Assembly: GCA_016181895.1 (NCBI GenBank)
Contig: JACOYL010000006.1
Location: 1 to 42,843, forward strand
Direction of reading: 5' to 3'
DNA length: 42,843 nucleotides
Source: Candidatus Pacearchaeota archaeon
GTDB lineage: Archaea > Nanobdellota > Nanobdellia > Pacearchaeales > GW2011-AR1
Numbering within the stretch: position 1 is the stretch's first letter; each line of letters starts with the position of its first letter. The position numbers and the translations under genes were made by a program. This document shows positions 1 to 42,479 of the stretch, in pieces. The notes under the pieces are model-generated. The model saw only the letters and a list, made by a program, of their open reading frames with translations. It made no database searches and was not told the origin of the DNA.

Positions 1-930
1 TGTCCCTGCGCCGTCAAACCACATCATCGTTATATTGCATGTATAGTTTGCAACGTTCGTGGCAACTTCATATTGATTGCAACTTGAGTTTTGCCTCAAC
101 GCCTCTCCATTTCTTGAGAAGTTTATTGTTGCTGTGGCATTGTTCATATTTGCAACCCCCTCTGCATCAAAAACAGAAAAGTTGATTATTATCGAAGTAT
201 TAGCTGGTCCTGCGCTTAATCCAGTACCAGCATTCCTTAAGGACGGACTGGTATCATTGTAAACATTCCTGATTTCAGGAGGATTGTTTGCTGATATTGA
301 AAAGTTTATCGTGCTTCTATTGTAATTTCCAGCAGAGTCATTCACCCATATTGTTACATTATGTATCCCAGAACTCCAAGTTATTGTTGTTATGTTCTCG
401 CAACTTGCAAGTGTTGTGTTTACCAAATATGTATCATTGGAGTACCAACAATTGAATAAACCTACTAAATCAGAACGCGTGTAATTAACATCTGCCCCTG
501 TATCGGAAACAACTGTGTTATTAAAAGGATAAGTTATGTTTATGTCCGGTTGTATTGTATCAACAGTAAAGCTAATGCTTGTGTAATTCAAATTTCCTGC
601 TGAATCATTCACATAAACAGTTACATTATGCAAACCTTCACTCCATGTTATGTTTGTAATGTTGAAATACGTTCCACCGCTTCCCAAACTTTTATTCGCT
701 CCAGCATGTGTATCATTGTTATACCAGACAGAATCTATTCCAAGAGAATCTGAAAATGTAAAATTTATATTTTGGTTTATGTTTGTTGTATTTGTATTGT
801 TCTGTGCGGGAGTTGTGATATTTAGGCTTGGAGCAACAGAATCAATCGTGAATGAAATTGTCGCAAAATTGTAATTTCCAGCAGAATCATTTGCCCAAAT
901 TGTAACATTGTGCTTTGCATCACTCCACGT
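1..930 (-). pseudogene. Out-of-frame 3' continuation of the Ig-repeat surface protein, running off the window
   Basis: The minus strand is open from base 930 to base 1, with no stop that I can find. It encodes four or so more Ig/cadherin-like modules of the same kind as the gene at 930-3839 (HNVTIWANDSAGN, WYNNDTHAGANKSLG, HNVTVYVNDSAGNLN). It has no start codon of its own: it begins within a repeat at TWSDAKHNVT, one frame away from the upstream ORF, whose TAA stop lies at 930-932. The two are most simply one gene broken by a deletion of about 103-106 bases, which removed the middle of one module. A real lesion, a phase-variable state and an assembly repeat collapse all remain possible. The product would be extracellular and rich in N-x-S/T sequons. 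The C-terminus lies outside the window. Confidence 0.7.
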
Positions 931-3839
931 TAAATAAAGTTTACATTGAGAGTATTGGTGCCGTTGGAATTATTTACGGTTGGAAAAGCGATTGAAATTG
1001 TCGGTTGGATTGTGTCAATCGTGAAACTCACAGAAGTTTTGTTTATGTTTCCGACAGTGTCGTTTGCATAAATCGTGACATTGTGCTTTCCCTCGCTCCA
1101 AGTTATGTTTGTTATGTTGAAGAAAGTCCCGCCTTCTCCCAATGATCTGTTAACTGTTCCCGTGTCGTTTGAATACCATGCGGCAACAACCTGAGTAAAG
1201 CTGTCTGAAAAAGTGAAATTGATGTTTTGAGCCGTGTTTGTCGTGTTTGTGTTGTTCACTTCGGGAATTAGGATTGTCAAGTCAGGGTTTGTAGTGTCAA
1301 CAGTGAAGCTAATTCTTGACTGGTTCACATTTCCAAACGTGTCGTTCACGTAAACAGTCACGTTGTGCTTTCCTTCGCTCCATGTAAGGTTTGTAATGTT
1401 AAAGAAAGTTCCGTCCGAACCGAGAGAGCGATTGATTAGATTTGTATCATTTGAGTACCATATGTTGAAAATTCCGTTCAAATCTGAAAAAGTGAAGTTG
1501 ACATTTTGAGCTGTGTTTGTCGTGTTTGTGTTATTCACAGTCGGAAATTGTATTTCAACGGCAGGAAGTATTGAATCAACCATGAATGTAACAGTAGTAT
1601 AATTTTCATTTCCTGCCGTATCATTCACCCAGACAGTTACATTATGAATTCCCTCGCTCCAAGTTATGTTTGTTATGTTGAAAAAAGTTCCTCCAGAGCC
1701 GAGAGAGCGATTGATTAGATTTGTATCATTTGAGTACCATACAGCAGAAATTCCTCCAGCGTCGGAATATGTTGCATTAACATCAAGATTGTTGTTTGTG
1801 GTGTTTGTCAAGTTTGTTGGAAAAGCGATTGAAATTGCTGGTTTTGTCGCGTCTGCTGTAACAGTAACAGTAAAAATGGGACTTACCAAATAAGGCCCGT
1901 CTTGGTCTTGTGCTCCGCATCTTAATTGATATGTTCCTCCGGTGTTTCCCGTTACAATCTGCCCAAAATTCTCATCAGTTCCTGCAGTGCTGGCAAATTG
2001 CCCGTTTGCATCATCTCCTGTTAAATCTGTTGTTCCAGTAGTTACAGCAATATTTGGCGTGCAAGAAGTTCCTACACAATAAGTCCAGTTTCCGTCCAAC
2101 GTAGTTCCGGCATTATTTCCAGTTCCAAAATCAACAGTGCAATTATAATTAAAATTTCCCCCCTGGGATATTGAAGTTTGATTTGTTGGAGATGTCAAAG
2201 AAATAGAGAGCAATTGCCTTGCATCGTGAATATAATCATATTCAATATCCCCATTTAAAGATTTAAGATCAAACGTATCCTGACTCTCCGACAAATTCAG
2301 TTCGGTAAAATAAAACCCTTCTCCAGAAATTTCTATATTTCCAACCATTACATCAGAATTTTTCTCATAAACTCCAATTGTTCCGCTATTGCTTTTAACA
2401 TATATATCAATAAAATCTCCTTTTGTAAGATTTGTTATGAAATAAGCCCTTGCATATTCGTTTTCAGGAATTGTGTAGGTAATATTGTCTGTTTCATTAA
2501 CATAATCATAAATATCTGCAACAAAATCCCTGTTTGAATCCAAATGTTCCGCCGCGATTATTACAATTTCAAAAGTTTGTTCTGACAAAGATGGAATAAT
2601 CCATTCAAGATAGTCATAAACCCCGTTTGAATCTTTATCTTCAATAGAAATCGGAGTAATGTAAGAATTGTCTTCAATCCATTTTATTTTTATCTTGCCC
2701 GGATTTTTCACCTTCAGATTTTCATTCAAATTAGTATAAGCAAGAACGTCTTGATAATGAACATCGTCGGGACCGAAGACTTTTATTCTTTTTCCTGCAG
2801 AAATGTCTTCTTCAACAGAATAAGGCGCGGGCGTTTCATACTCGATTTCATATTCAACGCTTGTGTCATTGATATCAACTTCAACTTCTGTGTAAGTCGG
2901 AATATTTTCGTCAACAACTCTTCCAGTGATTGCTCCTAAAATCCGAGACAAAAATCTGAAAATGAAATTTCTTTGGCTTCCAATAATTCCTCCTGTAATT
3001 GTTGTTCCCCCAGTTACATCCCTTTCAACCTCATTTTCTGTTTTGTTTATTTTTATGTTTTTTGAATTCTCTGGAATTGCAATTTTCAAAATTCCTGTTT
3101 CTTCGCTTGTAATTGTCTTTCTCCATTTTACATTTTGATTCAAAACAGCTTGGAATTGAATTGTTTTTATTGTCGCATTTTCAATGAATGTGATATTCTC
3201 TAAAATTGTCTGATTAATTTCCGTGATATTTGTCACGGTTTCATTAATTGGAATTTCAATTTGCGTTTCATTTTGGATTTCTTCAGGAATTATTTCAGTT
3301 ATGTTTTCTTTTTGAGATGTTTCATTTTCAGTAATATTGAATTCAGGAATTGTCGTTTCCGTCTTATTAACAATAGAAATATTTTCTTCAGAAGTTTGGA
3401 GAGGTTCTTGTTCTGGGAGGGAATTATTTTGAACCTCTCCTGTTATTTCTTCTGAATATGATTCGTTTGCAGAAATATTTTCTCCTTCCTGAACTGCAAA
3501 ACCGATGAATTTCGGCTGGAAATAAAAAATTGGAAGAATTAAAACCGAGACAAAAATCAGCGAGGCAAAAACAAACACAAATTGCGTTTTCAAAAGAACT
3601 CTTCTTTCCCTGTTGATTTGTTTTCTGCATTGTTGTATGTAATCTTCAAAATGCTCAATCCATTCCCGGACATTCATGCCGTTTCTTTTTTGATAGAATG
3701 TTTCGAGAAAAAAAGAATGGGAAATTTCTCCTTTGTTGTACCTTGATTTCAGTTCATTGAGAAAATTGGAGAATTCGTTTTTTTTCTGCTGCGCATGGGA
3801 GATTTTTTTCTTAAGCTCTGCTATTCTAGTTCTAGCCAT
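930..3839 (-). CDS. Large cell-surface Ig-repeat glycoprotein with cytoplasmic coiled coil and one membrane anchor (frame broken at its 3' end)
   Basis: About 969 residues. I choose the ATG at 3839 (MARTRIAELKK), not the ORF-track start at 3857, because GGGAGGG lies 6 nt upstream of it. Residues 1-85 are charged and helical, probably cytoplasmic. A transmembrane helix follows at about 86-107 (FVFVFASLIFVSVLILPIFYF). Next comes a long Asn/Thr/Glu-rich stalk dense in N-x-S/T sequons, a middle region with an EYDYIHD-type segment, and near-identical 75-residue Ig-like modules built on WYSNDTNLINRSLGSGGTFFNIT and TWSEGKHNVTVYVND. Such proteins are common on DPANN surfaces, and adhesion to a host cell is a reasonable inference. 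The frame stops at 930 in the middle of a module although the array continues. A TATA element (CATTTATAAGG on the minus strand) lies upstream, divergent from glyS. Confidence 0.85.
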   Translation of the reverse strand: MARTRIAELKKKISHAQQKKNEFSNFLNELKSRYNKGEISHSFFLETFYQKRNGMNVREWIEHFEDYIQQCRKQINRERRVLLKTQFVFVFASLIFVSVLILPIFYFQPKFIGFAVQEGENISANESYSEEITGEVQNNSLPEQEPLQTSEENISIVNKTETTIPEFNITENETSQKENITEIIPEEIQNETQIEIPINETVTNITEINQTILENITFIENATIKTIQFQAVLNQNVKWRKTITSEETGILKIAIPENSKNIKINKTENEVERDVTGGTTITGGIIGSQRNFIFRFLSRILGAITGRVVDENIPTYTEVEVDINDTSVEYEIEYETPAPYSVEEDISAGKRIKVFGPDDVHYQDVLAYTNLNENLKVKNPGKIKIKWIEDNSYITPISIEDKDSNGVYDYLEWIIPSLSEQTFEIVIIAAEHLDSNRDFVADIYDYVNETDNITYTIPENEYARAYFITNLTKGDFIDIYVKSNSGTIGVYEKNSDVMVGNIEISGEGFYFTELNLSESQDTFDLKSLNGDIEYDYIHDARQLLSISLTSPTNQTSISQGGNFNYNCTVDFGTGNNAGTTLDGNWTYCVGTSCTPNIAVTTGTTDLTGDDANGQFASTAGTDENFGQIVTGNTGGTYQLRCGAQDQDGPYLVSPIFTVTVTADATKPAISIAFPTNLTNTTNNNLDVNATYSDAGGISAVWYSNDTNLINRSLGSGGTFFNITNITWSEGIHNVTVWVNDTAGNENYTTVTFMVDSILPAVEIQFPTVNNTNTTNTAQNVNFTFSDLNGIFNIWYSNDTNLINRSLGSDGTFFNITNLTWSEGKHNVTVYVNDTFGNVNQSRISFTVDTTNPDLTILIPEVNNTNTTNTAQNINFTFSDSFTQVVAAWYSNDTGTVNRSLGEGGTFFNITNITWSEGKHNVTIYANDTVGNINKTSVSFTIDTIQPTISIAFPTVNNSNGTNTLNVNFI

Positions 3840-3959
3840 TCGAGTCCCTCCCATCACTTATCTTGTATGTATTTTTCCTTATAAATGTATGTACTTTTTA
3901 ATTAATACTTATTATTTATGTATTATTTAATTTAAGGAGATTATGGGGAGAAATGAAGC

Positions 3960-9533: not shown

Positions 9534-12500
9534 TCAGGGTTTGATTATTATATCCTGCCCTTGATTTGCTATGTAATAATCTCCTTCCGGGACGGAATTG
9601 AGATATTTTTTATTTGCGTCCAAAAATGCGTTTTTGTTTCCAAAATTCTTTTTAACATCCTCAATATCTTTATCCCAAACAGCATCAAGATTGCAATTCC
9701 TTGGACTCAAAACATAATACACTTTCGGCAAAACGCTCGTGTCGCATTTCCATATTTTATCTTTAAGCTTTAAACCGTTTTCATAATCAAGTATTTCTTG
9801 TGCTTGAGGACCCAAATTCGTTCCATACAATTTATTATTTTTTCCACTGTCTATTGAAAATCCAATTGGAACTCCTTTATCATCTATGTAAATTATCGTA
9901 TTATCTTCAATGTATTTCTTCACATAATTCTTGCCATCTATCTGACCTTGTTCTGATTCGGTAATATAACTATTATCTCCTATTTTAACAGTTTTAGAAA
10001 TTCTTATCTCTTCTTTTCCTATTCTCTCCACGACAATTTCCGCATAAGCATCCGCGCGAAGCATTATCAATTCTGCTTTTTGGCTATTCAAGAAAGCCTT
10101 TGCAATCAAGTCTGTTGTTATGGAACTTATTTTGATATTGTTATCAAGGTTCTTCAATTTTTCAAAATCTCTTTTGAAATCCTCGAAATATTGTCCTTCC
10201 TCTGTCATTTGTTTAACAAAATTCTCTCCTGTTGCTTTCAGCGTCGCATCTTCAATTTCCGTCGATGTGATTGCTTTTTTTACGCTGTTTTGATCAAGAT
10301 AGCATTTCAAGTTTCCTGAACTGTCGCATTTCCCGACTCTAACCCATCTGCTTCCCTCTCCGTCTGCTTTTGCATCAGTGCCTCTTCCCGGATTGTCTGT
10401 CGAGCAAACCCGAACAATTTGCTGCGCATAAAGATTTGGATCGACATATTGTTGCAATCCTGATTGCAAGTTTGGATTTGCAAAACTGTAAAGGCTTGGA
10501 GTTCCGGAAACACATTCTGATTCTGTTTTTATGTCTGTCTGTTCTCCTTGTTGTTTGGAATACAAGTCCTGCAAATAATCCAATCCAAAATCAGTGCTTA
10601 CTCTGTTGAATCCGCATTCTTCCTGCCCGTTGACATTGATGCACAATTGCTGGTATCCGCTTGGAGCTGTGAAGTCTCTTGTCTCACTCGCGAGTTCTCC
10701 AGGAGGAATGAATCCGTCGGCAATTTGTATTGTCTGCGCGTAATTGAAAAACGAGCCTGTTTGCGGAGTTTTCAAATAAACGCGATAAAAGACTCCGGCA
10801 TTTCTCACACCGCTTGTCTGAAGCGTCCCCTCTCCTGCAAAAATGTGATAAAACACTTTGTATCTTGAAATCGGCGGAACAGTTGATGTTGTGTAAGGGC
10901 TTTCGGAAAACCATGCAGTATATTGCGGCGGCGACTCGGGCTCTATCAACGAATCAAAGAAATTCACATCGGGATAACTTGCGGAAACAAAATTTCTGCA
11001 GACAGCTTGTCCCACCTCTCTTATTATTCCCGTCTTGAACGCCTCGAAGGAAGCCGCGCCGTAATAATTTGTCATGTAATCAATCGACCTTTGAGCATTC
11101 TCCCATGAGGAAGCAACTCCCAAATACTCGCCTCCTCCTCTTCCTGTTTGTCCTCTTATTATTTCAAATATTTTCGGGACAATCACGCCTGCGACAGGCT
11201 GCGCCTGGCTCCAGAAGAAATCACACAGGTAAATGCTGTGAATCTCGTCGCAGATTCCGACTGTTTTTCCTGTTTCCAAATTTGTCTGCAGGCAATCTCG
11301 ATAATTTTTCTGCACAGAGACAAATCCGTCGATTCCAGCTTTTATTCCCGACAAGCATACTGGAACTGCAATATTTTCCCTTGCATTCGGCAAACATAGA
11401 GCCGCGCTTCCGATGATTCCGGATTGAATCACGTCGGGAACAGTAAATGTTCCTCCCAAATTACAACGGCTTGAAGGACAAACAACAGGGTCGCATGCAT
11501 TGAACAAAATCAAGCATTCTTTCGGCGACATGAAATCTTGGCATTGAATGTCAGGCACTCCAATGCTTGGTTCCCCGACGGAAATAAATTCATTCAGTAT
11601 GCTTACTCTGCTGACTCCCTGCGAATGCTGCCTCGTCGCATCCTGAACAGCTTCCATCGCGTTTGAAACCAGTCGCGATGTTTCGCTTGGATTCAATCCA
11701 GGAAATGTTCCTTGAACTTGTTGCAAACCAGGATTGAAATTTCTGCAGATGTCGTCTTTCAATTCGGAATAAAATTCCTCCCTTCCGTTTTTGCCGACGT
11801 TGCAAATGTAGAAACTTCTTATCTGTCCCGATTCGTCGTAAGCCCTTATTCCCCCTTTGTCTGTCAAAAGTCTCGCAGCCGCGCCGGGAATCAATTGCTT
11901 TGTTCCGACATACCATCCGTTGGATGTATCAAAGGGAACAATCGCGGGCAATCCTGCATAAGGCGAAGTCTCAAAATATCTTACCTTTGGTTCTTTGAAT
12001 TTGTTCTCGTAAGAAGTTCTGTCGAATTGAATGAATTGTGAATAAGAGCCTTTTATTTCCTTGAAAATTTCTTCGCTCTCTTGGATTTCAACGATTCCTT
12101 TTTCATCAAAAATCTTGTCTATACTGAATCTTTTATCACCTATTGTTTTCAGTGTTACAAGATATTCCTTGTTGTTAAAGCTGATTGGCTGAAAAAAAGT
12201 ATTTGCAGGAATAGAGTTAAAATTTCCGGCGGAAGTTTTCAATCCATCATAAACCTCTTCTATTTGCCTTTCTCTTGTATGAACCCTGTACGAAAAGTCC
12301 TCGAAACCGCTTTTTTCCAAATTCTCCTGCGCCTTCTGAAGTTTTGCAAAATTTTCCGAATTTGCTTTTATATCCGACAAAAGGGCATATCTCTTCTTCT
12401 CGGCAAGTTTTTTCATTTCACCGCTTGGATTTGAACTAATAATCTGATTCAATCTGTCAATATCTCTTGCCTGGCTTAAAGTTATTCCTCCGTCGTCATA

Positions 12501-15473
12501 ACCTTTTTGTGTAAAAGCAGCCCCAACATCCCCTGAAATGTCAATGAACTCTTTTCTATTCTCTGGATTTTCTATCGTTGTTCCCAAATCTTTTTTAATG
12601 TCTCCAAGCCTGACTTCGATATTCTTTCCAGTAATATTTTTCTGATTGCTTATTATCCCCGCAAACAAATCAACGTCCCTTTCAATATCATCATTTTTTT
12701 CGGCAAGGCATTTGTCAATTGTTGAATATGTTTTTGCATTCACGGCATCCTTGCAAAAATCAAACCATCCTCCTGGGCTTCTCATTACTTCCTGCCTTGC
12801 AATAGCCCTTCCATCGAAATTCTGGAAAAGATTTTTTATTGTCAATCCTGTTCCAACAGCCAAGCAGACGGCGTTGAATGTTTTCACAACCTCTCCTACT
12901 TTGTCGGAAGTGTCTTCCCATTTTTCAATCGATTCGTTCAGCGTGTCTATCCTTTCCTGGATTTTATCCGGAGAAAGTTGAATCAATCTTTTTTCAATCC
13001 CCAAGGTAAAGCTGAAGTTTGTTTCTGTTCCAGTGTTTCTTATGCTTGGAATTATTGAAACGCGGGCGACTTTTTTCAGGTTTATTTTTGTGACTGTGAA
13101 AATGTAATCTCCGTATTGCTCATTGACGTTTCTTCTCATCACAATTTCAGAATCAATGCTTCCGCTTCTGATGTGAAGTTTTATCCTTGCCGAATTTTCC
13201 GTCAAGTCAAGAAGTTGGATGAAATCGTTGCTTTGTGTGTTTGGAATTTTTTCTGTTCCGAAATCAAAAAATCCTATTTTTATTTTTCTATTCGTCAAAA
13301 TCTCATCGCCTTGAGCAAGAGTTTTTCCTTCAAGTTGCTCTTTTAAAAATTTAGCATCTTTTTCCGACAATGATTTTCCTTCGTAAGCCTTGGTGTTGCT
13401 TTTTTCAATTGTTTTTTTGCCAACTTCCATCCAATTTTTATTGCCCGTTAAATCTGCTGACCATAACCATTTTCCTCCAAAAAATCCAAGATAAATTTCA
13501 TTTACAGAAATCACATCAGATACGGGTATTCCTTCCTCAAGCCTGATTTTATAGATAAATTCAGGATTCTCGTTCAAGGTGATGATTTCATTCTTTGTAA
13601 GGAAATATCCTTCCGGTTCTTTGTTTGGCCTTTTTATTGTGATTTCCGCGCTGAAATCATCCAAAGAAGGTTCCACAACATCCTCGAGGAAAACCGTTTT
13701 CGCCCTTCCGTTGATTACAATTCCCGAAACATGAACGCCTTCGCTTGAAATCTTGAACTTGCTGCATTTTTCCTCGACTTGTTTTGCGTCATTAGGATAT
13801 TTCTCCCTGAATTCCTCGCACAATTTTGAAGCGTCTTGTTTTTGTCCTGTTCTGGTTGAAAGCCCGATTGATTTTATCAAAGCCTCTTTTCCAAAAGTTG
13901 TATTCTGTATGTTTAATGGTTTCTCGCCCGCGAACTTGTCAATTATTTCCCTGTAGTCTTTCATTGCATTCTCATAATATTCCCCTGCTGTTTCATCGGA
14001 GAATTGAACATTTCCGGATTGTACAAGTCCGACTAAAGTTATTTCCTTGCCGAATTTTGTTGACGATTTTCCAATTCTGACATCATCCCATGAATCTCCG
14101 ACAATGAGATATTTTGCGAGCCTGTTTGAATACCCCACAAATCTTTGGGTCCATCGCGCCAAAGCTGCAACTCCTCTTTCCCCGCTTGTTCCAGGGGTTT
14201 CCATAGCCCTCACTAAAAAACTCGCGGAATCAAGCTCGTCTTCCGTCAGACTTTCTTTATGTGTCGGTGTTGCAAGGAAATAAACAAACAAATCTTCAAC
14301 ATTCTCTGTATTTTTGTCTGTTCCGACATAAGCAAGGTAAACGCTTTTTTCATTTCCAGAAGTCGTGAATAATCTCTCGCCCAACTTTACATTTCTTTCA
14401 ACTCCGTCAATGCTCAATTTTATCTTCGGACTTATTTCAAAATTCAGCGTTTCAGCTCCATCATCTGTTCGGCATCTGATTTCTGTTTTTTTCGTAAGCC
14501 CTTTTTTCTCGACATCTCTCACGACGCAATTGTTGTCGAAAAATCTTTCGCCTTCCGCGACTTCAAAAACCTCTCCGTTGATGTTAAGCCTTGCCCTTGT
14601 ATCCGGGCTTTTGACTTCGTCCAACCTTACATTCAATGCGGCGCGGCAATAAAATCCGGGAAGATAAACATCTCCCGAAACCTGTCCTTTGTCAAGGTTG
14701 AAAGTTGAAACCTTGTTTTCAGCGTCGGAATAAATTGAAACAACGGCGCCGTTTTCATCGATTCCCTCGACTCTTAAAAATCCGCGCCCGTCCCAGAATC
14801 CGTATTGCCTGTAATTCTCGTTCCATTCATCGTCGGTAATTTCAGGGATTTGCCTTCCTACTGCTCCAACTCCGAATGCATTTTGAATGTCGTATCTTAT
14901 CTTTGCCGTGAGGTTTCCGGAAACAAAATCAGGCATTGAAGACTCGTTTGGATTTTGTTTCAAGACAATTACCGCATATCCTATGTTCTGGATTACAGGA
15001 GAATTGAGAAGCGTTGTCGTCGTGCTTCTCACCGCCGCGTTTGCCGGATGGAATCCTATTCCCGCGATTTCGTTTGGATATTCTCCTTCAAAGGAAATGA
15101 AATCAATGGCTTCGACGTCGATAAGGGGATTTATTTTCGTCGCATACAACTGGCAAAAGACAGGAACATTCTGCTCTTCAAGCAAATCGCTTCTTACTAC
15201 GCTCGGAGTGCAGCCGAAAGGCGCGATTTGAATTATGAAATCATTTCCCAATCCGCATTGATTCGGATTGAAAATCGGAAATGCGTTGACTCCCTGCCTT
15301 CCCAAATAAGAAAATGAATTTGCTCCCGGAGCTGTAAGTTGCGGGCTTGAAAATGAAACAGCCGAAATGAAAATCGCGAATGAAAAAAATAATGTTAAAA
15401 CAAGTCCCATAAGTAAAATTTTTTTGTTGACACCAATGCCCGTCTTGTCTAACCCATTATAAGTATTTTTCAT
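9534..15473 (-). CDS. Giant exported Cys-containing protein, 1979 aa, DPANN-type, function unknown
   Basis: N-terminal signal/anchor helix at about 18-38 (ILLMGLVLTLFFSFAIFISAV) after a basic start, then an entirely extracytoplasmic chain. I see no known catalytic domain. Visible parts are a conserved-looking N-terminal region with cysteines (NPNQCGLGNDFIIQIAPFGC), a charged helical, coiled-coil-prone middle at about 920-1090, a Cys-rich segment near 1390-1530 (CDPVVCPSSRC) with hydrophobic stretches, a fibronectin-like beta segment near 1640, and a further Cys-rich region before a charged C-terminus. Many cysteines point to disulfides outside the cell. A GGAG lies 14 nt upstream of the ATG, further than usual. 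The gene follows the 613-aa pilin-like gene and a 32-aa ORF in an ATGA-coupled operon. A surface machine or scaffold is inference only. Confidence 0.85.
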   Translation of the reverse strand: MKNTYNGLDKTGIGVNKKILLMGLVLTLFFSFAIFISAVSFSSPQLTAPGANSFSYLGRQGVNAFPIFNPNQCGLGNDFIIQIAPFGCTPSVVRSDLLEEQNVPVFCQLYATKINPLIDVEAIDFISFEGEYPNEIAGIGFHPANAAVRSTTTTLLNSPVIQNIGYAVIVLKQNPNESSMPDFVSGNLTAKIRYDIQNAFGVGAVGRQIPEITDDEWNENYRQYGFWDGRGFLRVEGIDENGAVVSIYSDAENKVSTFNLDKGQVSGDVYLPGFYCRAALNVRLDEVKSPDTRARLNINGEVFEVAEGERFFDNNCVVRDVEKKGLTKKTEIRCRTDDGAETLNFEISPKIKLSIDGVERNVKLGERLFTTSGNEKSVYLAYVGTDKNTENVEDLFVYFLATPTHKESLTEDELDSASFLVRAMETPGTSGERGVAALARWTQRFVGYSNRLAKYLIVGDSWDDVRIGKSSTKFGKEITLVGLVQSGNVQFSDETAGEYYENAMKDYREIIDKFAGEKPLNIQNTTFGKEALIKSIGLSTRTGQKQDASKLCEEFREKYPNDAKQVEEKCSKFKISSEGVHVSGIVINGRAKTVFLEDVVEPSLDDFSAEITIKRPNKEPEGYFLTKNEIITLNENPEFIYKIRLEEGIPVSDVISVNEIYLGFFGGKWLWSADLTGNKNWMEVGKKTIEKSNTKAYEGKSLSEKDAKFLKEQLEGKTLAQGDEILTNRKIKIGFFDFGTEKIPNTQSNDFIQLLDLTENSARIKLHIRSGSIDSEIVMRRNVNEQYGDYIFTVTKINLKKVARVSIIPSIRNTGTETNFSFTLGIEKRLIQLSPDKIQERIDTLNESIEKWEDTSDKVGEVVKTFNAVCLAVGTGLTIKNLFQNFDGRAIARQEVMRSPGGWFDFCKDAVNAKTYSTIDKCLAEKNDDIERDVDLFAGIISNQKNITGKNIEVRLGDIKKDLGTTIENPENRKEFIDISGDVGAAFTQKGYDDGGITLSQARDIDRLNQIISSNPSGEMKKLAEKKRYALLSDIKANSENFAKLQKAQENLEKSGFEDFSYRVHTRERQIEEVYDGLKTSAGNFNSIPANTFFQPISFNNKEYLVTLKTIGDKRFSIDKIFDEKGIVEIQESEEIFKEIKGSYSQFIQFDRTSYENKFKEPKVRYFETSPYAGLPAIVPFDTSNGWYVGTKQLIPGAAARLLTDKGGIRAYDESGQIRSFYICNVGKNGREEFYSELKDDICRNFNPGLQQVQGTFPGLNPSETSRLVSNAMEAVQDATRQHSQGVSRVSILNEFISVGEPSIGVPDIQCQDFMSPKECLILFNACDPVVCPSSRCNLGGTFTVPDVIQSGIIGSAALCLPNARENIAVPVCLSGIKAGIDGFVSVQKNYRDCLQTNLETGKTVGICDEIHSIYLCDFFWSQAQPVAGVIVPKIFEIIRGQTGRGGGEYLGVASSWENAQRSIDYMTNYYGAASFEAFKTGIIREVGQAVCRNFVSASYPDVNFFDSLIEPESPPQYTAWFSESPYTTSTVPPISRYKVFYHIFAGEGTLQTSGVRNAGVFYRVYLKTPQTGSFFNYAQTIQIADGFIPPGELASETRDFTAPSGYQQLCINVNGQEECGFNRVSTDFGLDYLQDLYSKQQGEQTDIKTESECVSGTPSLYSFANPNLQSGLQQYVDPNLYAQQIVRVCSTDNPGRGTDAKADGEGSRWVRVGKCDSSGNLKCYLDQNSVKKAITSTEIEDATLKATGENFVKQMTEEGQYFEDFKRDFEKLKNLDNNIKISSITTDLIAKAFLNSQKAELIMLRADAYAEIVVERIGKEEIRISKTVKIGDNSYITESEQGQIDGKNYVKKYIEDNTIIYIDDKGVPIGFSIDSGKNNKLYGTNLGPQAQEILDYENGLKLKDKIWKCDTSVLPKVYYVLSPRNCNLDAVWDKDIEDVKKNFGNKNAFLDANKKYLNSVPEGDYYIANQGQDIIIKP

Positions 15474-15483
15474 GTTAACTTAA

Positions 15484-15582
15484 TCATCTCCTTCTTTTTG
15501 TTAAATTCTTCTCATTTTTATTTTCTGTTTTCATTTTTTCCTCGGAACAATGCGTGGTTTTTTCAGCATCACATCTCTTCAT
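15484..15582 (-). CDS. 32-aa ORF linking the two large exported-protein genes
   Basis: Starts at an ATG that overlaps the TGA of the 613-aa gene (ATGA). It encodes a 32-residue, highly charged peptide starting MKRCDAEKTTHCSEEK and ending in KRRR, and stops at a TGA that itself overlaps another ATG. That ATG opens a 5-codon frame (MIKLT) whose TGA overlaps the ATG of the 1979-aa gene. The whole 105-nt spacer is thus bridged by stop-start overlaps. Too short for the ORF track. It may be a real micro-protein or only a translational relay. Confidence 0.4.
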   Translation of the reverse strand: MKRCDAEKTTHCSEEKMKTENKNEKNLTKRRR

Positions 15583-17420
15583 CTGAATGTTATCGCAAGT
15601 TTTTTGTCGTCGAACAAAAGATAGTTTTCCTGAAGCTGGTCTATTGAATTTGGAATTGGAAGACTTTCCCCGCTTATTTCAATCGTGTTTGAATTCTGCA
15701 ATTCTGATTCCAGGATATAATAATTCTGCGTTCCCCCGCCGGCAAGCGCGTTTGAAACAATCTGGCTTGGAAATTCAATGTTGTAGCAGTTTTCCTTTGT
15801 GAATCCGAAAAATCCTCCGATTCCTGTTTGGGGAACATCAACGCAATAATTGCTTGTCTTTGTTCCGATGTTCAAATTTGAATTCCTGTACATGTGAATT
15901 TGAACCTCGTACTGCCCCTCGCTGAGTTTTATTTTTTTCTGCTCGGGATATGCGATTACTCTTGAATTTCCGTCGTCTTTTACGAAACTCACCGTTGCCT
16001 GTCCGTCATAATTTGTTCCATCAAGTTTCAATTGAACATTTTTCTCGTAAATTTTCTCGAGGAAAACATCAACTGCCCCTTGCTGCAAAACAGAATATTG
16101 CTGTTTTCCTTCTTCATATCCTTCGGTTCTAGCAATCACGTTTCCGTTGACGCATTGGGGGAAATTTTCTTTTATGATTCCGTTTTTTGTTTTTCCAATT
16201 TGACAAATTGTTCCCGAGCATTCGTAGGAAACGTCCGCTTCAATATTTCCAAAGTTTGAATCAAAAACGCGGATTTCCGTCATCGTGTTTTTCTGCCCGC
16301 ATAATTCGGGAATTTCAATCGCAACCGCATCCGTTTCCAATGCCTTTCTCGGCTTGTTTCCCTGTATGACAACTGCAAGGGGAAATTGAAATACTTCGTT
16401 CCTTCCTGAAATCTGCACGAGAACAGGGTACTTTGCATCATAAACAAAATGATATGGAACATAGCAGAATCCCAAGATTCCCAAGCCTGGCTGTGTTCCA
16501 ACAGGAGTGGAAATCAAAATTTCCTCTTTAGAGGGATTTATTTCAAAACTTCTGCTCCAGTTTCTTGAATTCAAAAATCTGATTTCATGTTCTGTCGGCA
16601 AATCCAAGTCAAAATACTTGTTGTCAACCATGTTTATGGCAAGAGTGTTGTCCTCGATTGCAGCGCTCAAATTGTTGAAAATCTCGTTTGCGTTCCATGT
16701 CAAGGGCGAGCATGTCAATTCAACGCCGTCGACAGGCGCGTAAATCCTCAATGTATCAATCCCGAGATTTTCCAGGAACAGGTTTTCCTGCTCGTAGTCG
16801 TAAATGTCCCTTGCGGAATCGTATAATTCTCCGATTTCGGAATCGACAGAAACATCGTGGCTGGAAACAACAACGCTTTCCTCTCCTTTCTTGATTGTCA
16901 AATCGGAGTTCAATGAAACATCAACCCTTGTGTTGAGAATTCTTGCGTTTGCATTTCCTTCATCGAGGAAAATCTCAAATCCTTCCTCATGATAAGAATC
17001 AAAAACGCAGTTTCTTATTTTCTCCTCGACAAAATTCCCCAATTGTTTTTCCATCTCATTTTTGCCAGGAATCTGTTCCCTTTCCAAATTGTTTCCGGAG
17101 ACATAATACCAGTATGGAACGGGATTCCCGAGAAAATCCAACTGCGATGAAAACGGCATGAAATCGCTTCCGGGTTCAAATGCAGGAAGTTCAATGTATC
17201 CCGCCCGGCTCTCAAGAATGTCAATTCCTGCAAGAACGTCTTCTTCCAGGCATGAAAGAAAAGTTGTGTAAACAGGTTCCAAACTGCTCGGGATTTGGGA
17301 AACAAAAATATTCTGCCTGATTAAAAAAAACAGTGCAACGCCTGCAACAAGAATTATCGCAATGATTATGAAAACAGTCAATTGCCCCTTTTTTCCGGAA
17401 ATCATCCCTCTAAAAATCAT
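15579..17420 (-). CDS. Exported protein with type-IV-pilin-like N-terminus, 613 aa
   Basis: The N-terminus MIFRGMISGKKGQLTVFIII has a short basic leader with a GKKGQ-type site directly before a hydrophobic helix (LTVFIIIAIILVAGVALFFLI). This resembles class III (pilin/archaellin) signal peptides and is frequent in DPANN. The remaining 575 residues are extracytoplasmic, beta-rich, with scattered cysteines (C53, the NCVF, LTCS, FCYVP and ELCGQ segments, and a C-terminal NYCVDVP pair). No catalytic motif was found. A strong TATA (CTTTATATATATAA on the minus strand) about 28 nt before the ATG supports a leaderless start at M1; M6 is an alternative. It is the first gene of the operon with the 32-aa ORF and the 1979-aa protein. 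Confidence 0.85.
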   Translation of the reverse strand: MIFRGMISGKKGQLTVFIIIAIILVAGVALFFLIRQNIFVSQIPSSLEPVYTTFLSCLEEDVLAGIDILESRAGYIELPAFEPGSDFMPFSSQLDFLGNPVPYWYYVSGNNLEREQIPGKNEMEKQLGNFVEEKIRNCVFDSYHEEGFEIFLDEGNANARILNTRVDVSLNSDLTIKKGEESVVVSSHDVSVDSEIGELYDSARDIYDYEQENLFLENLGIDTLRIYAPVDGVELTCSPLTWNANEIFNNLSAAIEDNTLAINMVDNKYFDLDLPTEHEIRFLNSRNWSRSFEINPSKEEILISTPVGTQPGLGILGFCYVPYHFVYDAKYPVLVQISGRNEVFQFPLAVVIQGNKPRKALETDAVAIEIPELCGQKNTMTEIRVFDSNFGNIEADVSYECSGTICQIGKTKNGIIKENFPQCVNGNVIARTEGYEEGKQQYSVLQQGAVDVFLEKIYEKNVQLKLDGTNYDGQATVSFVKDDGNSRVIAYPEQKKIKLSEGQYEVQIHMYRNSNLNIGTKTSNYCVDVPQTGIGGFFGFTKENCYNIEFPSQIVSNALAGGGTQNYYILESELQNSNTIEISGESLPIPNSIDQLQENYLLFDDKKLAITFR

Positions 17421-17424
17421 TCAG

Positions 17425-17460
17425 AAAACATGCTAATTATATATATAAAGTTTATCGGTT
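17425..17460 (-). promoter_or_regulatory. Promoter of the giant exported-protein operon
   Basis: On the minus strand, AAACTTTATATATATAATTAG lies about 25-30 nt upstream of the ATG at 17420, a textbook archaeal TATA position for a leaderless mRNA. Confidence 0.65.
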
Positions 17461-33136: not shown

Positions 33137-33907
33137 ATGGAAAAAATAATCCAGCTCGGCGCGGAGGCGGAAATAATTCTCAGCAGAAATAAAATAATCA
33201 AACGCCGCGTTCCAAAATTCTATCGGCTTAAAGAACTGGATGAAAAAATCAGGAAATTGCGAACACGCTCTGAAACAAAACTTCTGGAAAAAGCATCAAA
33301 AATAGTTAATGTCCCAAAAATATTAAATATTAATGTTAAAGATTTATCCAAAATGTTGGAGGTTGGAGGTTGGAAGGAGGGGATAAAGAAAAACAATTTT
33401 GAAATTCAAATGCAATTCATCAAAGGAAAAAGGCTTTCTGAAAATCTTGACAAATTTCCATTGAAAAAGCAAAAAGAAATCTGCAGAAAAATTGGAGAAA
33501 ACATTTCAAAACTTCACGATTCAAATATAATCCACGGAGATTTGACGACAAGCAACATGATTTATTTTGAAAATTTTAATAAAGAAAAAAATAAAAACAA
33601 CAAATCTAAAAACAGCTTAAAAGAAGTGTTTAGAGATAATAATTCCTTGGGGGTGGGTTGGTGGGAAAAAGGTTCTTTCAGTGTTTTCTTCATCGACTTC
33701 GGCTTGGGATTCATAAGCCATAAAATAGAGGACAAAGCCGTGGATTTGCATCTTCTCAAAGAGGCACTTGAAGCAAAACACTTTCAAAACTGGAAAATTC
33801 TTTTTAATGAAGTTCTGAAAGGATATAAAGTCTCAAAACATTGCGAAAAAGTCGTAGAGCAAATGAGGAAAGTCGAATCAAGGGGGAGATACAAGGAAAA
33901 GTATTAG
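33137..33907 (+). CDS. bud32: KEOPS complex kinase/ATPase Bud32 with two internal insertions
   Basis: 256 residues, longer than the roughly 200 usual for archaeal Bud32. It works with Kae1, Cgi121 and Pcc1 in making t6A in ANN-decoding tRNAs. Core motifs: QLGAEAEI (6-13), RRVPKFYR, the IKGKRL segment (95-100), catalytic loop IIHGDLTTSNM (131-141), DFGLGF (187-192), and the basic C-terminal SRGRYKEKY. Two stretches are extra: about 64-88 (NINVKDLSKMLEVGGWKEGI) and 145-180, rich in K/N and ending NSLGVGWWEKG. Both are encoded by G-run DNA like the intergenic elements. No fused Kae1 domain. The gene follows the coiled-coil protein by 2 nt. Confidence 0.93.
   Translation: MEKIIQLGAEAEIILSRNKIIKRRVPKFYRLKELDEKIRKLRTRSETKLLEKASKIVNVPKILNINVKDLSKMLEVGGWKEGIKKNNFEIQMQFIKGKRLSENLDKFPLKKQKEICRKIGENISKLHDSNIIHGDLTTSNMIYFENFNKEKNKNNKSKNSLKEVFRDNNSLGVGWWEKGSFSVFFIDFGLGFISHKIEDKAVDLHLLKEALEAKHFQNWKILFNEVLKGYKVSKHCEKVVEQMRKVESRGRYKEKY
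33649..33665 (+). repeat. G-run motif inside bud32
   Basis: GGGGGTGGGTTGGTGGG with the flanks AATTCCTT and AAAAAGG, encoding LGVGWWEK. It matches the intergenic copies in form and strand. A second G-rich block (GTTGGAGGTTGGAGGTTGG) lies at about 33355-33373 in the same gene. Confidence 0.65.
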
Positions 33908-38644: not shown

Positions 38645-39874
38645 TCAAAACAATTTCCCCTGGATTTCTCCGGGCAAAACCTTTCCGTATTCCCCGTCGA
38701 AACCCGGCTTGACTTTTATTTTTCCTTCTCTGTTTTTTAAAATCAAATCAATCAATTTGGCATCGATTTCTTTTCTGACAAATTCCTCTCTTGAAACTTT
38801 AAGCAAAATATTGAATTCATTTCCAAAATTTTCAATCATTCTGTTGTAAATTTCCCATGATTTTCTTGAAGCCATCGGAGTTCCATGCAAAACAGAAATC
38901 AGTTCATGCAACGGAATTATGTGATGAAAAGGCTTTGCATTTTCCGGCTTGAATCCTTTTTTTTCTTTTGCTATTTCTTCAACCCTGTAATCAACCCCGA
39001 TAATCAACGGTTTTTTGCAGACAGGACAAATTCCTTTTAGTTTTTTTGTTTCCTCCGGAGAAGAGGAAAAGTTGCAGTTTCGATGCCCGTCATAATGATA
39101 TTTTCCGTAGGCTGGCGGGGTTTCTATCGTGGATTTCAATCCTTCTCCTGTTCGTATTGCTTTTATTATATTGTCATAACTAAGTTCGGGAATTTCAAAA
39201 ATCGTTGCCTCTCTCCCGATTCTCCAAGGCCAAAAACTGTGCGCGTCTGAAAAGGAAACCACATTTACTTTGTTTTCTGCAACTTCCTCAAATCTCCAAA
39301 GCATTGCGGGATCAGCAGACATGCCTGATTCAATAGCGTAAATCTTTCCTACCTGTGAACGAAAGCATTCTTTCAAAGAATCAAATCCTGATTTGCTTCC
39401 AAACAAGCCGAACCATGGAGTCATGCAGTGCGCGGGAATTATCTCGATTTTGTCGTCGATTTCCTTTAAGTCCTTTGTAAAATTCTCGCACGTCATTCCA
39501 AAAATAGGCCTGCCGTCGTAATCAATTCTTCCTTTAGTCAAAAGATATTTTGTGAATGCGTCGGCTGTTTTTCTGTTCGGAACAAAGACAAGCAAATGCA
39601 CAGCCCTTCTTTTCCCGTCCTGTGAAAACATCAGGCTTATTTCTGTCTGCCACAAAAACGGAAATCCTTTCTCTGTCCAAAGAATTCCCTTGTCGTCTTC
39701 CTTCAGTTTCTCGTCGATTTCCTTTCTCCAAAGCGGATGCTGGAAATCCCCTGTTCCTATGATGTCCAGTCCTTTTATTTTCGCCCACTTTTCAAGATTG
39801 TCTATCGTGATGTCCTTGCTTGTGGCTCTCGCAAACCGCGAATGAATTTGAAAATCGGCAATCACCTCAATCAT
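38645..39874 (-). CDS. endoQ: Endonuclease Q (PHP-domain DNA repair nuclease)
   Basis: 409 residues, near the size of Pyrococcus EndoQ, which cuts 5' of deaminated bases such as uracil and hypoxanthine. PHP-domain metal residues are visible: DFQIHSRFARATSKD (D7, H11), GTGDFQHPLW (D43, H46), QTEIS (E78), PAHCMTPWFGLFGSKSG (147-163) and SFSDAHSFWPWR (207-218). The zinc finger has C267, C283 and C286 with H264 (GHRNCNF...GICPVCKKP). A helical C-terminal domain follows (PFHHIIPLHELISVLHGTPM). First gene of a two-gene unit with the receiver-like protein. Confidence 0.92.
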   Translation of the reverse strand: MIEVIADFQIHSRFARATSKDITIDNLEKWAKIKGLDIIGTGDFQHPLWRKEIDEKLKEDDKGILWTEKGFPFLWQTEISLMFSQDGKRRAVHLLVFVPNRKTADAFTKYLLTKGRIDYDGRPIFGMTCENFTKDLKEIDDKIEIIPAHCMTPWFGLFGSKSGFDSLKECFRSQVGKIYAIESGMSADPAMLWRFEEVAENKVNVVSFSDAHSFWPWRIGREATIFEIPELSYDNIIKAIRTGEGLKSTIETPPAYGKYHYDGHRNCNFSSSPEETKKLKGICPVCKKPLIIGVDYRVEEIAKEKKGFKPENAKPFHHIIPLHELISVLHGTPMASRKSWEIYNRMIENFGNEFNILLKVSREEFVRKEIDAKLIDLILKNREGKIKVKPGFDGEYGKVLPGEIQGKLF

Positions 39875-39924
39875 TAATAAAATCAGAGAATTAAGTTTTT
39901 AAGAATTTTGTAATTTTTTAAGAA

Positions 39925-40590
39925 TTATTTTCTATGAGCCATATAATCTATAATTCTCGTTATTGATTCTATATCTCCTTTGGAAGTGTATTTTTGAATT
40001 CTCTCCACTTCTCCCTTAACTAAATCAATTCTTCTTCCAATTGTCGTTCCCTGAGAATGTCGGACAACTTTATCCCAATCTTGTTCTTCTCCAGGATATG
40101 CAAAAAAGTTAATGTCTGGATTCTCTCTAATAACAACACTGGAGGCAGTCATAAATGCTCTTAATAAATGAAATTGCGGAGCAATTAAGTACAATAAACT
40201 TAAGTCATTCTTGGAAGAGTATCTAATATATTTAACCAATGCCTCTGATTCATTCAAAGTATTTATTCCGATATTGTCTGAAAAGTCAATTGGCAAAAGA
40301 GTTATGTTGTATTTTATTTTAAGATTGTTTGACCAACTGTCAAAACCCGGATAACCATTTCCCTTTGGCGCGCTGGAAGCAAAAACACACTCAGTTAATC
40401 CTTTATCCAAAAGTTTTCGTGCAGATAAAAAATTGGCTTCTTCATTGTCAGAGGTTTCTCCAAAAAGGTACAAATCATTCATCTTTCTTAATTTTTCTTC
40501 GCGGCTATCTTCCCTCATTAAATCATAAAACTCTACTAAATCCACAATCGAGCGTAATTTTACCAATTCATTTCTTAATGTATCTGACAT
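39925..40590 (-). CDS. DUF218/YdcF-like protein
   Basis: 221 residues. LYLFGETSDNEEANFLSARK and ECVFASSAPKGNGYPG are followed by GINTLNESEALVKYIRYSSK and LYLIAPQFHLLRAFMTASSV, which correspond to the DUF218 elements (N-T-x-E-N/S-A and h-x-H-x-x-R-A). Unlike SanA/YdcF it lacks a transmembrane helix, so it is cytosolic. The biochemical role of the family is poorly defined. It stands alone between endoQ and the surface protein gene. Confidence 0.65.
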   Translation of the reverse strand: MSDTLRNELVKLRSIVDLVEFYDLMREDSREEKLRKMNDLYLFGETSDNEEANFLSARKLLDKGLTECVFASSAPKGNGYPGFDSWSNNLKIKYNITLLPIDFSDNIGINTLNESEALVKYIRYSSKNDLSLLYLIAPQFHLLRAFMTASSVVIRENPDINFFAYPGEEQDWDKVVRHSQGTTIGRRIDLVKGEVERIQKYTSKGDIESITRIIDYMAHRK

Positions 40591-40643
40591 AATTCAAGAT
40601 TGAAAAAAGCCTTTAAAAGAATTATTGTTATTAATTTGAATTC

Positions 40644-42479
40644 TTACTGCTGTCCTTTTTTCTTCTTCCAGGCAATTCCGCCGCCGATGATTACCGCAAG
40701 AAGTATTATTGCAATGACAATCCACAACAACTTGCTGCTCTTTTCAGAAATTGGCGTTGTCGTCGTTACTTCCTCTTCAGCGGCTTCAACAACTTTTTCT
40801 CCGATTGCAAAGTAACTGAATGAACTTACTTCTGAAGTATAATAATAATAGGTATCGTCTTCGCTGTCATAAGTTGTCGTTAATTCATTCCACAACTCAG
40901 AATCGTCGTCAAACTTGAATACGGCGACATCGTCTTTGTCCTCAACATTCGAGGAAACCCACGATTTTTCAACCTGCACTTTTACAGTTGCCTTGTCCAG
41001 TTTTCCGTCAAGATTTGTAGCCTCTATCTGCAAGTATTTGTAAACACTTCCTTCTCTTGCTACGGAAACCGCCGCAGGCTTTCCGTCGTGCTTTGTGACG
41101 GTGATTTCAACATTCTGCGCTTCATTGTTGACTTCTATTGAAATTTCCTTTACTCCGGCATCCGTGTTAAAATCAGATTTTATCGCAGCTGCTCCCGGAG
41201 TTATCTTTGCAAACGTATGAGATTTTTCAGTGCTTGCTGTCTCTGTTTGTGTCACGGGAACCTGAACGCTTGATGTTGCTCCAGAAGTTGTTGTTGTCCC
41301 TGTTCCAGATTGCTCAACAGTGTATTGTGCTGTTGTTGATGCAGTATTTCCAGCCTTGTCTGCAAAAGAACATGATTCTGTAAATGTTCCCGTATTCACT
41401 GTTGAAGGATTTGCAGTAATTGACGTTGCACTGCTATTCACCCCAGAAAGGGTATCACTTGGACTGCATGTACAAGTAACAGTATTTCCCGTATTTACTT
41501 GTGAAGGAGAACAAACAGCAGATGCTGTTGGCTTTGTGTTGTCGAATGTAACATTAGAACTGGAAGCGCTGCTGTTTAAATTATTGCTTGTATCATTAAC
41601 CCAAACACTAATATTATAAATTCCATCGGGATATTGCTTTGTGTTTATTGTAGCATTCCAATAATTCCCAGATACATTTGAAAGTGTAATTGTTGCATTT
41701 TGCTGACCAGAAGAGTTTGTGATATTAATAAATACCCTTACCCCAATGGTTGAAATTCCCGCCCCTGTAAGATAATTATCTAAAACAGAAGCATTAAAAT
41801 CTACCGAACCCGAATAATTACCATTTGCCCAAATTCTTCCTTTACTAGTATTTGTAATATTAATTTCATAGGGAGCGGTAGTATCATTAACCTTAATACT
41901 TATATTTGTTTCATTATAAAATGCTGATTTATTATGTTGAAACCTAATAGTAAGGTTAAAAAGCCCAGGTGTCCAAGCAGTTGCATTAAACGTAAAGAAA
42001 GAATAGTTTTTGCTAGTTACTGTAGCACTAGTTATTGTAGCATTAGTGTAAACAACAACACTGGTAAGATTTGTTGCATTCCAAGTTAGAGTACTACTAA
42101 TATTAGAGAAATAAATACAAACGTCACAAGAATAATCAGGACCAAATCGAGTATCACTAATATTTCCTGTACGATTACTTTTAATAGTGAAATTAGAATC
42201 CGTCCAAAGACTAACATTTACCTGAGTTAGATTCGAGGGACCACCTTCAGAAGTATGATTAATGGTTAAATTATAAATATATTGGACATCTTCATTAATA
42301 GTAAGGTATACCGGACCATTTGTTCCACTTTGATTAGTTATGTTAACAGTAGCAGTTGTTTTTCCGTAAGCATCCGTAAAATTCATCACAAAAACAATCG
42401 CAACCGCAAAAACCAAAATCAATGCCAAATGAAAGGCATTACTTTTCATCAAACCTCTTGTGTCAAAATTCATCTTCAT
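40644..42479 (-). CDS. Surface glycoprotein with PGF-pre-PGF-like domain and C-terminal anchor
   Basis: 611 residues. An N-terminal signal helix (AFHLALILVFAVAIVFVMNF, 16-35) is followed by Asn/Thr-rich Ig-like modules with many N-x-S/T sequons (YNLTINHTSEGG, WVNDTSNNLNSSASS), a Cys-containing module (SAVCSPSQVNTGNTVTCTCS), and the PGF-pre-PGF-like domain near 430-560 (HTFAKITPGAAAIKSDFNTD, VEKSWVSSNVEDKDDVAVFK, SEVSSFSYFAIGEK). It ends with a transmembrane helix and basic tail (LLWIVIAIILLAVIIGGGIA, KKKKGQQ). In related archaeal proteins the domain precedes a sorting signal. Promoter: TTTATAAA about 60 nt upstream, with an inverted repeat between. Confidence 0.85.
   Translation of the reverse strand: MKMNFDTRGLMKSNAFHLALILVFAVAIVFVMNFTDAYGKTTATVNITNQSGTNGPVYLTINEDVQYIYNLTINHTSEGGPSNLTQVNVSLWTDSNFTIKSNRTGNISDTRFGPDYSCDVCIYFSNISSTLTWNATNLTSVVVYTNATITSATVTSKNYSFFTFNATAWTPGLFNLTIRFQHNKSAFYNETNISIKVNDTTAPYEINITNTSKGRIWANGNYSGSVDFNASVLDNYLTGAGISTIGVRVFINITNSSGQQNATITLSNVSGNYWNATINTKQYPDGIYNISVWVNDTSNNLNSSASSSNVTFDNTKPTASAVCSPSQVNTGNTVTCTCSPSDTLSGVNSSATSITANPSTVNTGTFTESCSFADKAGNTASTTAQYTVEQSGTGTTTTSGATSSVQVPVTQTETASTEKSHTFAKITPGAAAIKSDFNTDAGVKEISIEVNNEAQNVEITVTKHDGKPAAVSVAREGSVYKYLQIEATNLDGKLDKATVKVQVEKSWVSSNVEDKDDVAVFKFDDDSELWNELTTTYDSEDDTYYYYTSEVSSFSYFAIGEKVVEAAEEEVTTTTPISEKSSKLLWIVIAIILLAVIIGGGIAWKKKKGQQ

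Follow-up and report, generated by a model that had tools for sequence, protein, structure and literature searches.

How episymbiotic DPANN archaea attach to, or draw on, partner cells is an open question, and two adjacent genes in the DNA analysed here bear on it. The window is the whole 42,843-nucleotide (nt) stretch of contig JACOYL010000006.1 from a Candidatus Pacearchaeota archaeon. The genes, which we call A and GIANT, are minus-strand open reading frames (ORFs) 105 nt apart, encoding 613 and 1979 amino acids (aa), in a Pacearchaeales (Nanoarchaeota) genome that is a 736-kb metagenome-assembled genome (MAG) of 24 contigs; its named relatives are mostly MAGs of Candidatus Pacearchaeota or Nanoarchaeota. 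A preliminary description of the window had picked out these two ORFs as subunits of one extracellular structure. We propose, with a probability of roughly 45%, that A undergoes processing and serves as a tip-type, pilin-like adaptor, displaying GIANT at the cell surface, much as PilX- or GspK-type proteins are paired with PilY1.

Do the two genes belong together? We found that A and GIANT are two intact, exported, cognate and conserved genes. Among 37 relative genomes, all 37 have a match to the A family and 35 a match to GIANT, and the intactness of these homologues indicates that both ORFs are real genes, as first described. In the relatives a long A is followed by GIANT wherever the contig continues. 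Within an independently fetched set of 80 named loci, GIANT lies directly downstream of A on the same strand in 76, and 70 of these neighbours are within 350 nt of each other, many with overlapping reading frames; at the remaining four A loci the contig ends within 2–710 nt. The pair persists while the flanking genes change, including in distant families of the class. The tight coupling asserted in the preliminary description is thus borne out, the two genes co-occurring in relatives.

Of 186 genomes sampled from the class, 115 contain an A match, as do 241 of 279 in a draw from the phylum. A profile built from short A paralogues (see below) recovers practically the same set, 117 genomes with two marginal cases among them. 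Matches to the GIANT core occur in 71 of the 186 class genomes, some solely via the CDPVxCPSSRC region, and nearly all genomes with GIANT have one copy. Pacearchaeales-like A genes in genome G073 (contigs C12 and C18) were judged to be probable MAG contamination; a sister genome of the same genus does not have them.

The protein A starts with GKKGQLTVF, which had been read as pilin-like. This start is real and family-wide, being kept in 60 orthologues. All 127 A-family N-termini checked follow a prepilin-peptidase-like consensus, G/A/S at position −1 and then Q-x-T-x-F. Position −1 is always one of the three residues Gly, Ala and Ser, while Gln stands at +1 in 125, Thr at +3 in 107 and Phe at +5 in 121. 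The Glu at +5 of ordinary filament subunits occurs in none of the 127. A has the layout of a class III signal peptide (a basic residue, G/A/S at −1 and a hydrophobic helix), and it also has the hydrophobic +5 residue and large ectodomain that characterize GspK- and PilX-type tip pilins (PMC5207764, PMC7541494).

All 10 Cys of A are invariant across the 60 orthologues. Neither A nor its profile gave a significant match in Pfam, NCBIfam, PHROGs or PDB sequences; a HisF-like match of the profile (E 0.007) was judged to be due to chance. An AlphaFold2 (AF2) model built from 60 sequences, with a mean predicted local distance difference test (pLDDT) score of 85, predicts a helix (residues 12–37), an α/β domain (residues 48–230) and then β domains, which start after about residue 230. 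Foldseek matches of these β domains are Ig/CnaB-type surface and pilus proteins, the best being Gram-positive surface or pilus proteins together with SlaB. All have low TM-scores, and they therefore identify a β-sandwich stalk and not a family. The preliminary description saw neither an enzymatic nor an Ig-type domain in the two proteins; as to Ig-type domains this is wrong for A, given its Ig-like β domains.

GIANT is exported and Cys-containing, as had been noted. It has a single hydrophobic, signal-like stretch at its N-terminus and no other transmembrane-like segment, and 46 of 54 orthologues likewise have no further such segment, with one more in the other eight. It contains 32 Cys, 28 of which are kept in at least 90% of the 54 orthologues. 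Because the Cys counts are even and the location is secreted, disulfides would be the natural expectation for both A and GIANT. Since GIANT has no transmembrane anchor, its retention at the surface, if it is retained, requires another component. The protein ranges from about 1600 to 3250 aa across relatives, and a core of about 600 residues has a mean column identity of 48% over 23 genomes. As with A, searches of Pfam, NCBIfam, PHROGs and PDB sequences gave no significant match for GIANT, its profile did no better, and Pfam recognises no catalytic domain in it. An AF2 model of residues 776–1760 (pLDDT 70.8) has no fold match at E ≤ 0.001, and a weak likeness to CARDB/ApaG β sandwiches is seen around residues 740–850 of the model. 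By eye only, residues of about 500–570 look like TPR-like helices.

The preliminary description missed that A forms a branch of a wider family of modules, each pairing an adaptor with a partner, and this family is phylum-wide. The N-terminal ~210 residues of A match proteins of about 260 aa, of which there are two to five or more per genome. Counting once a region that was fetched twice, we found 68 distinct short A genes. For 61 of them the next gene on the same strand encodes a protein of 300 aa or more, whose N-terminus is usually hydrophobic. In 54 of the 62 raw cases with a partner, the two lie within 100 nt. The partners comprise a large Cys-rich family, a set with a common repetitive region and variable C-termini, and singletons. 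Pfam detects an APH-type kinase in partner L083 and DUF4846 in L193, and weakly a PG-binding domain in L231 and a GNAT domain in L211, while L192 and L222 show HExxH motifs. The enzyme-like regions of L083, L192, L222, L231 and L193 sit downstream of the shared region. When partner type was mapped on a tree built from 69 N-terminal regions of A, 8 changes were needed (minimum 5), compared with a mean of 37.6 in 200 shuffles, none of which was as low. This indicates that adaptor and partner travel as cognate pairs. Long A proteins with the extra β domains form the GIANT branch of the tree (Shimodaira–Hasegawa-like approximate likelihood ratio test, SH-aLRT, 100).

Two individual modules deserve description. 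On contig C11 of the genome that contains the window, the gene after a short A encodes an exported protein of 1015 aa that includes an APH-type phosphotransferase domain (L083:2178–6008, minus strand). In genome G002, a second A-type module (417 aa plus 699 aa) comes directly after GIANT (L047:251–3600, minus strand); the His and Cys motifs FTGHHY and YTSSCHS of its 699-aa partner suggest, by eye only, a caspase-like fold.

Does the genome have machinery that could serve a pilin-like adaptor? It contains two pilus-like loci, and pilins with Glu5 are found inside them. The classical pilus locus encodes an ATPase of 523 aa, T2SSF proteins of 441 and 279 aa and Glu5 pilins. The second, L173 (G000 C22:19000–38000), encodes between its positions 1831 and 15090 a 762-aa T2SSE ATPase, a divergent 767-aa tandem platform protein, a ClpP-like SDH protease, six pilin-like genes, an SLT transglycosylase-domain protein and a prepilin peptidase. 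Loci of this type are kept in the family (L232–L235), and the tandem platform is near-universal in the class. By counts made by hand from tables, the tandem platform of about 720 aa (E ≤ 1e-150) is present in 111 of 115 A-bearing genomes and in 3 of 71 that lack A. Next to the second locus, L173:2–1606 (minus strand) encodes an archaeal protein of 535 aa that combines SLT transglycosylase and LysM domains; it fits the murein-like lytic proteins reported in Pacearchaeota (PMC8204110).

Building on the pairing, the family, the motif, the co-distribution and the predicted folds, we propose the following scheme. A would carry a short class-III-like leader when synthesised and, once inserted into the membrane, be trimmed between Gly12 and Gln13, probably by the prepilin peptidase of the genome. 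The helix of trimmed A would then remain membrane-embedded or lie at one end of a short filament of the pilin type. Three features would make A fit a tip-type (GspK/PilX-like) pilin: Phe in place of Glu at +5, its bulky ectodomain, and a secreted partner of its own. GIANT would be exported via an ordinary signal peptide and fold as a disulfide-rich multidomain protein with no anchor of its own, and A may hold it at the surface by direct contact, as minor pilins hold PilY1. Because other A paralogues have other partners, a single adaptor family seems to carry exchangeable cargoes. The GIANT pair would be its conserved version, present in single copy, and would most likely serve to contact other cells or surfaces. 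A joint extracellular structure, as first suggested, is plausible; for the suggested role in uptake we found nothing in support.

Several observations weigh against this reading. The earlier idea of processing by a prepilin peptidase gains from the presence of the enzyme in the genome (G000 C22) and of two pilus-like loci, but Peptidase_A24 occurs in 68 of 71 A-lacking genomes as well as in 112 of 115 A-bearing ones. Its co-occurrence is near-universal and was dropped as a discriminating argument. The association with the tandem platform is confounded by phylogeny, as the A-lacking genomes cluster in certain families. The classical T2SSF platform is missing from 14 of the 115 A-bearing genomes, though 13 of these 14 keep the tandem platform and 13 keep the peptidase, and none of the neighbourhoods examined has A or GIANT inside a pilus locus. 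The Pfam Pilin_N profile does not match A and, among 30 short A proteins, picks up only 2, weakly (best E 0.043). No type IV pilin fold is among the top 50 of 589 Foldseek matches of A, where, as among PDB sequences, homology to known minor pilins is also not seen. The helix of A breaks near residues 38–47 in the AF2 model, and a KKGQ-type start would also suit a plain signal-anchor. With Pilin_N barely matching and no pilin fold among those matches, A would at best function as a tip pilin does, and we do not class it as a member of that group. That A is a classical pilus subunit was dropped as an idea, given the absence of Glu5 and the 14 A-bearing genomes without T2SSF.

The tip complexes are among the known systems closest in logic. 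In the bacterial type IVa pilus, PilX-type minor pilins and PilY1 resemble A and GIANT in having adjacent or clustered genes, a pilin-like partner without Glu5 and a big soluble partner with an ordinary signal peptide (PMC7541494). They differ in that the pair here lies outside a pilus operon, has one adaptor where they have four minor pilins, and gives no pilin-domain or PilY1 β-propeller match (none in GIANT by Pfam, nor by fold for residues 776–1760 at the threshold above). Tip pseudopilins of the GspK family in the type II secretion system share with A a hydrophobic +5 residue and a size larger than ordinary pilins (PMC5207764), but there is no sequence or fold match, and the A ectodomain is instead α/β plus Ig-like β domains. 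The logic also resembles that of SlaB and SlaA, and the defining features of each of these systems are found here only in part.

The main rival, which we regard as unlikely, is a two-component S-layer-like envelope with no pilus, in which A would form a stalk anchored in the membrane and GIANT the outer layer, as with SlaB and SlaA of Sulfolobales. The S-layer of Sulfolobus likewise combines an anchored β-domain protein with a giant secreted partner; A is an anchored, Cys-stabilised β-domain protein, GIANT is secreted without an anchor, and nearly all genomes have one GIANT each. SlaB, from the SlaA/SlaB assembly, is among the Foldseek matches of A (E 7e-5), but it is one Ig-like match among many, at a TM-score of about 0.15. 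The very high conservation of the GIANT core and its 28 fixed Cys are unusual for S-layer proteins, about 115 of the 186 sampled class genomes have no GIANT core match, and an envelope leaves the paralogous modules with enzyme-like partners unexplained.

Those partners point to a further alternative, that the A family tethers, or helps to release, large exported proteins acting on neighbouring cells, GIANT among them, with A a simple signal-anchor carrier and not a pilin. The kinase, HExxH, weak PG-binding and DUF4846 partners listed above speak for it, as does the fact that A type and partner type go together. We nonetheless consider it rather improbable for this pair. Some paralogous partners have enzyme-like C-termini, but GIANT has no catalytic domain recognisable by Pfam and no recurrent small, immunity-like neighbour, it is highly conserved and present in single copy, which sets it apart from polymorphic effectors, and a simple anchor needs no strict Q-x-T-x-F motif. 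Among the known systems, the SPEARE proteins of Nanohaloarchaeota are also giant, exported DPANN proteins with a proposed role in host contact (PMC9563170), but they belong to another phylum, and GIANT (1600–3200 aa) shows none of the recognised domains and has a fixed adaptor partner. Finally, that A and GIANT are unrelated neighbours kept together by gene-order conservation in small genomes is very improbable and was rejected: the flanking order is partly conserved too (TFIIB downstream; SRP receptor, GINS and S3Ae upstream), but flanks vary while A–GIANT stays, even in distant families of the class, and the adaptor/partner layout recurs at unrelated loci with matching types, partner type tracking the A tree.

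A broader extension of the adaptor reading is possible but doubtful: a phylum-wide, undescribed surface apparatus in which Phe+5 tip-type adaptors display interchangeable partners (GIANT, Cys-rich, or kinase- or peptidase-bearing), served by the divergent pilus-like machine with the tandem ~720-aa platform, and with which Nanoarchaeota would contact or act on other cells. Cognate pilins were reported not to be identifiable for some nanoarchaeal pilus ATPases (PMC4858521). Earlier literature gives labels only, among them the DPANN-specific secreted cluster cls.004306 (NEQ255), often encoded beside arCOG02487 and S-layer-like proteins (Makarova 2019, PMC6393860). Like A, it is a DPANN-specific secreted family near large surface proteins and, compared by description only, could be identical with the A family. 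Other such labels are modules specific to Pacearchaeota that have no assigned function (PMC8204110). The conserved single-copy exported pair and its paralogous modules are concrete candidates for DPANN cell attachment, and the cognate code between adaptor and partner could be put to the test by predicting structures and by biochemistry, with no need to grow the organism.

The features of the locus are collected in Table 1. The preliminary description had placed the pair under one strong leaderless promoter. The TATA-like element before A is compatible in sequence with a leaderless archaeal promoter, but its strength and a single transcript are unsupported; on inspection, the 105-nt gap between the genes contains no TATA-like element.

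Table 1. Positions of A, GIANT and their parts in the window
Feature	Position	Strand	Remarks
TATA-like element TTTATATATATAA (ACTTTATATATATAA)	17437..17449	−	about 25 nt upstream of A ATG
Gene A, 613 aa	15579..17420	−	ATG start; predicted membrane-tethered, pilin-like N-terminus plus ectodomain
A prepilin-peptidase-like site KKG/QLTVF, residues 10–17	17370..17393	−	+5 is Phe, not Glu; 127-member family tally
A hydrophobic helix, residues 12–37	17310..17387	−	
A α/β domain, residues 48–230	16731..17279	−	common to the ~260-aa paralogues
A C-terminal β domains, residues 231–613	15582..16730	−	in long A preceding GIANT; Ig/CnaB/transthyretin-like
A–GIANT spacer, 105 nt	15474..15578	−	purine-rich AAGGAG about 14 nt before GIANT ATG
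GIANT, 1979 aa	9534..15473	−	ATG start; exported; 28 conserved Cys
GIANT signal-peptide-like N-terminus, residues ~1–39	15357..15473	−	
GIANT N-terminal Cys domain, residues 60–345	14439..15296	−	conserved; motif C..xQDFIxQIxPxxCxPxVVRSDLLEEQNVPVFC
GIANT conserved core, residues 1150–1745	10239..12026	−	CDPVxCPSSRCxLGG motif

The flanking genes are housekeeping genes, namely a ProRS-like synthetase, TFIIB, ribosomal protein S3Ae, GINS, and SRP54 and FtsY-like GTPases. Elsewhere in the window, 930–3857 (minus strand) encodes a 975-aa surface protein of the ordinary kind with bacterial Ig-like (Big) domains, and 33137–33907 (plus strand) a protein of 256 aa that weakly resembles Pkinase and RIO1. 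Three consecutive genes at 38645–42479 (minus strand; 409, 221 and 611 aa) have no Pfam match, and the first two of them (409 and 221 aa) recur in genome G001.

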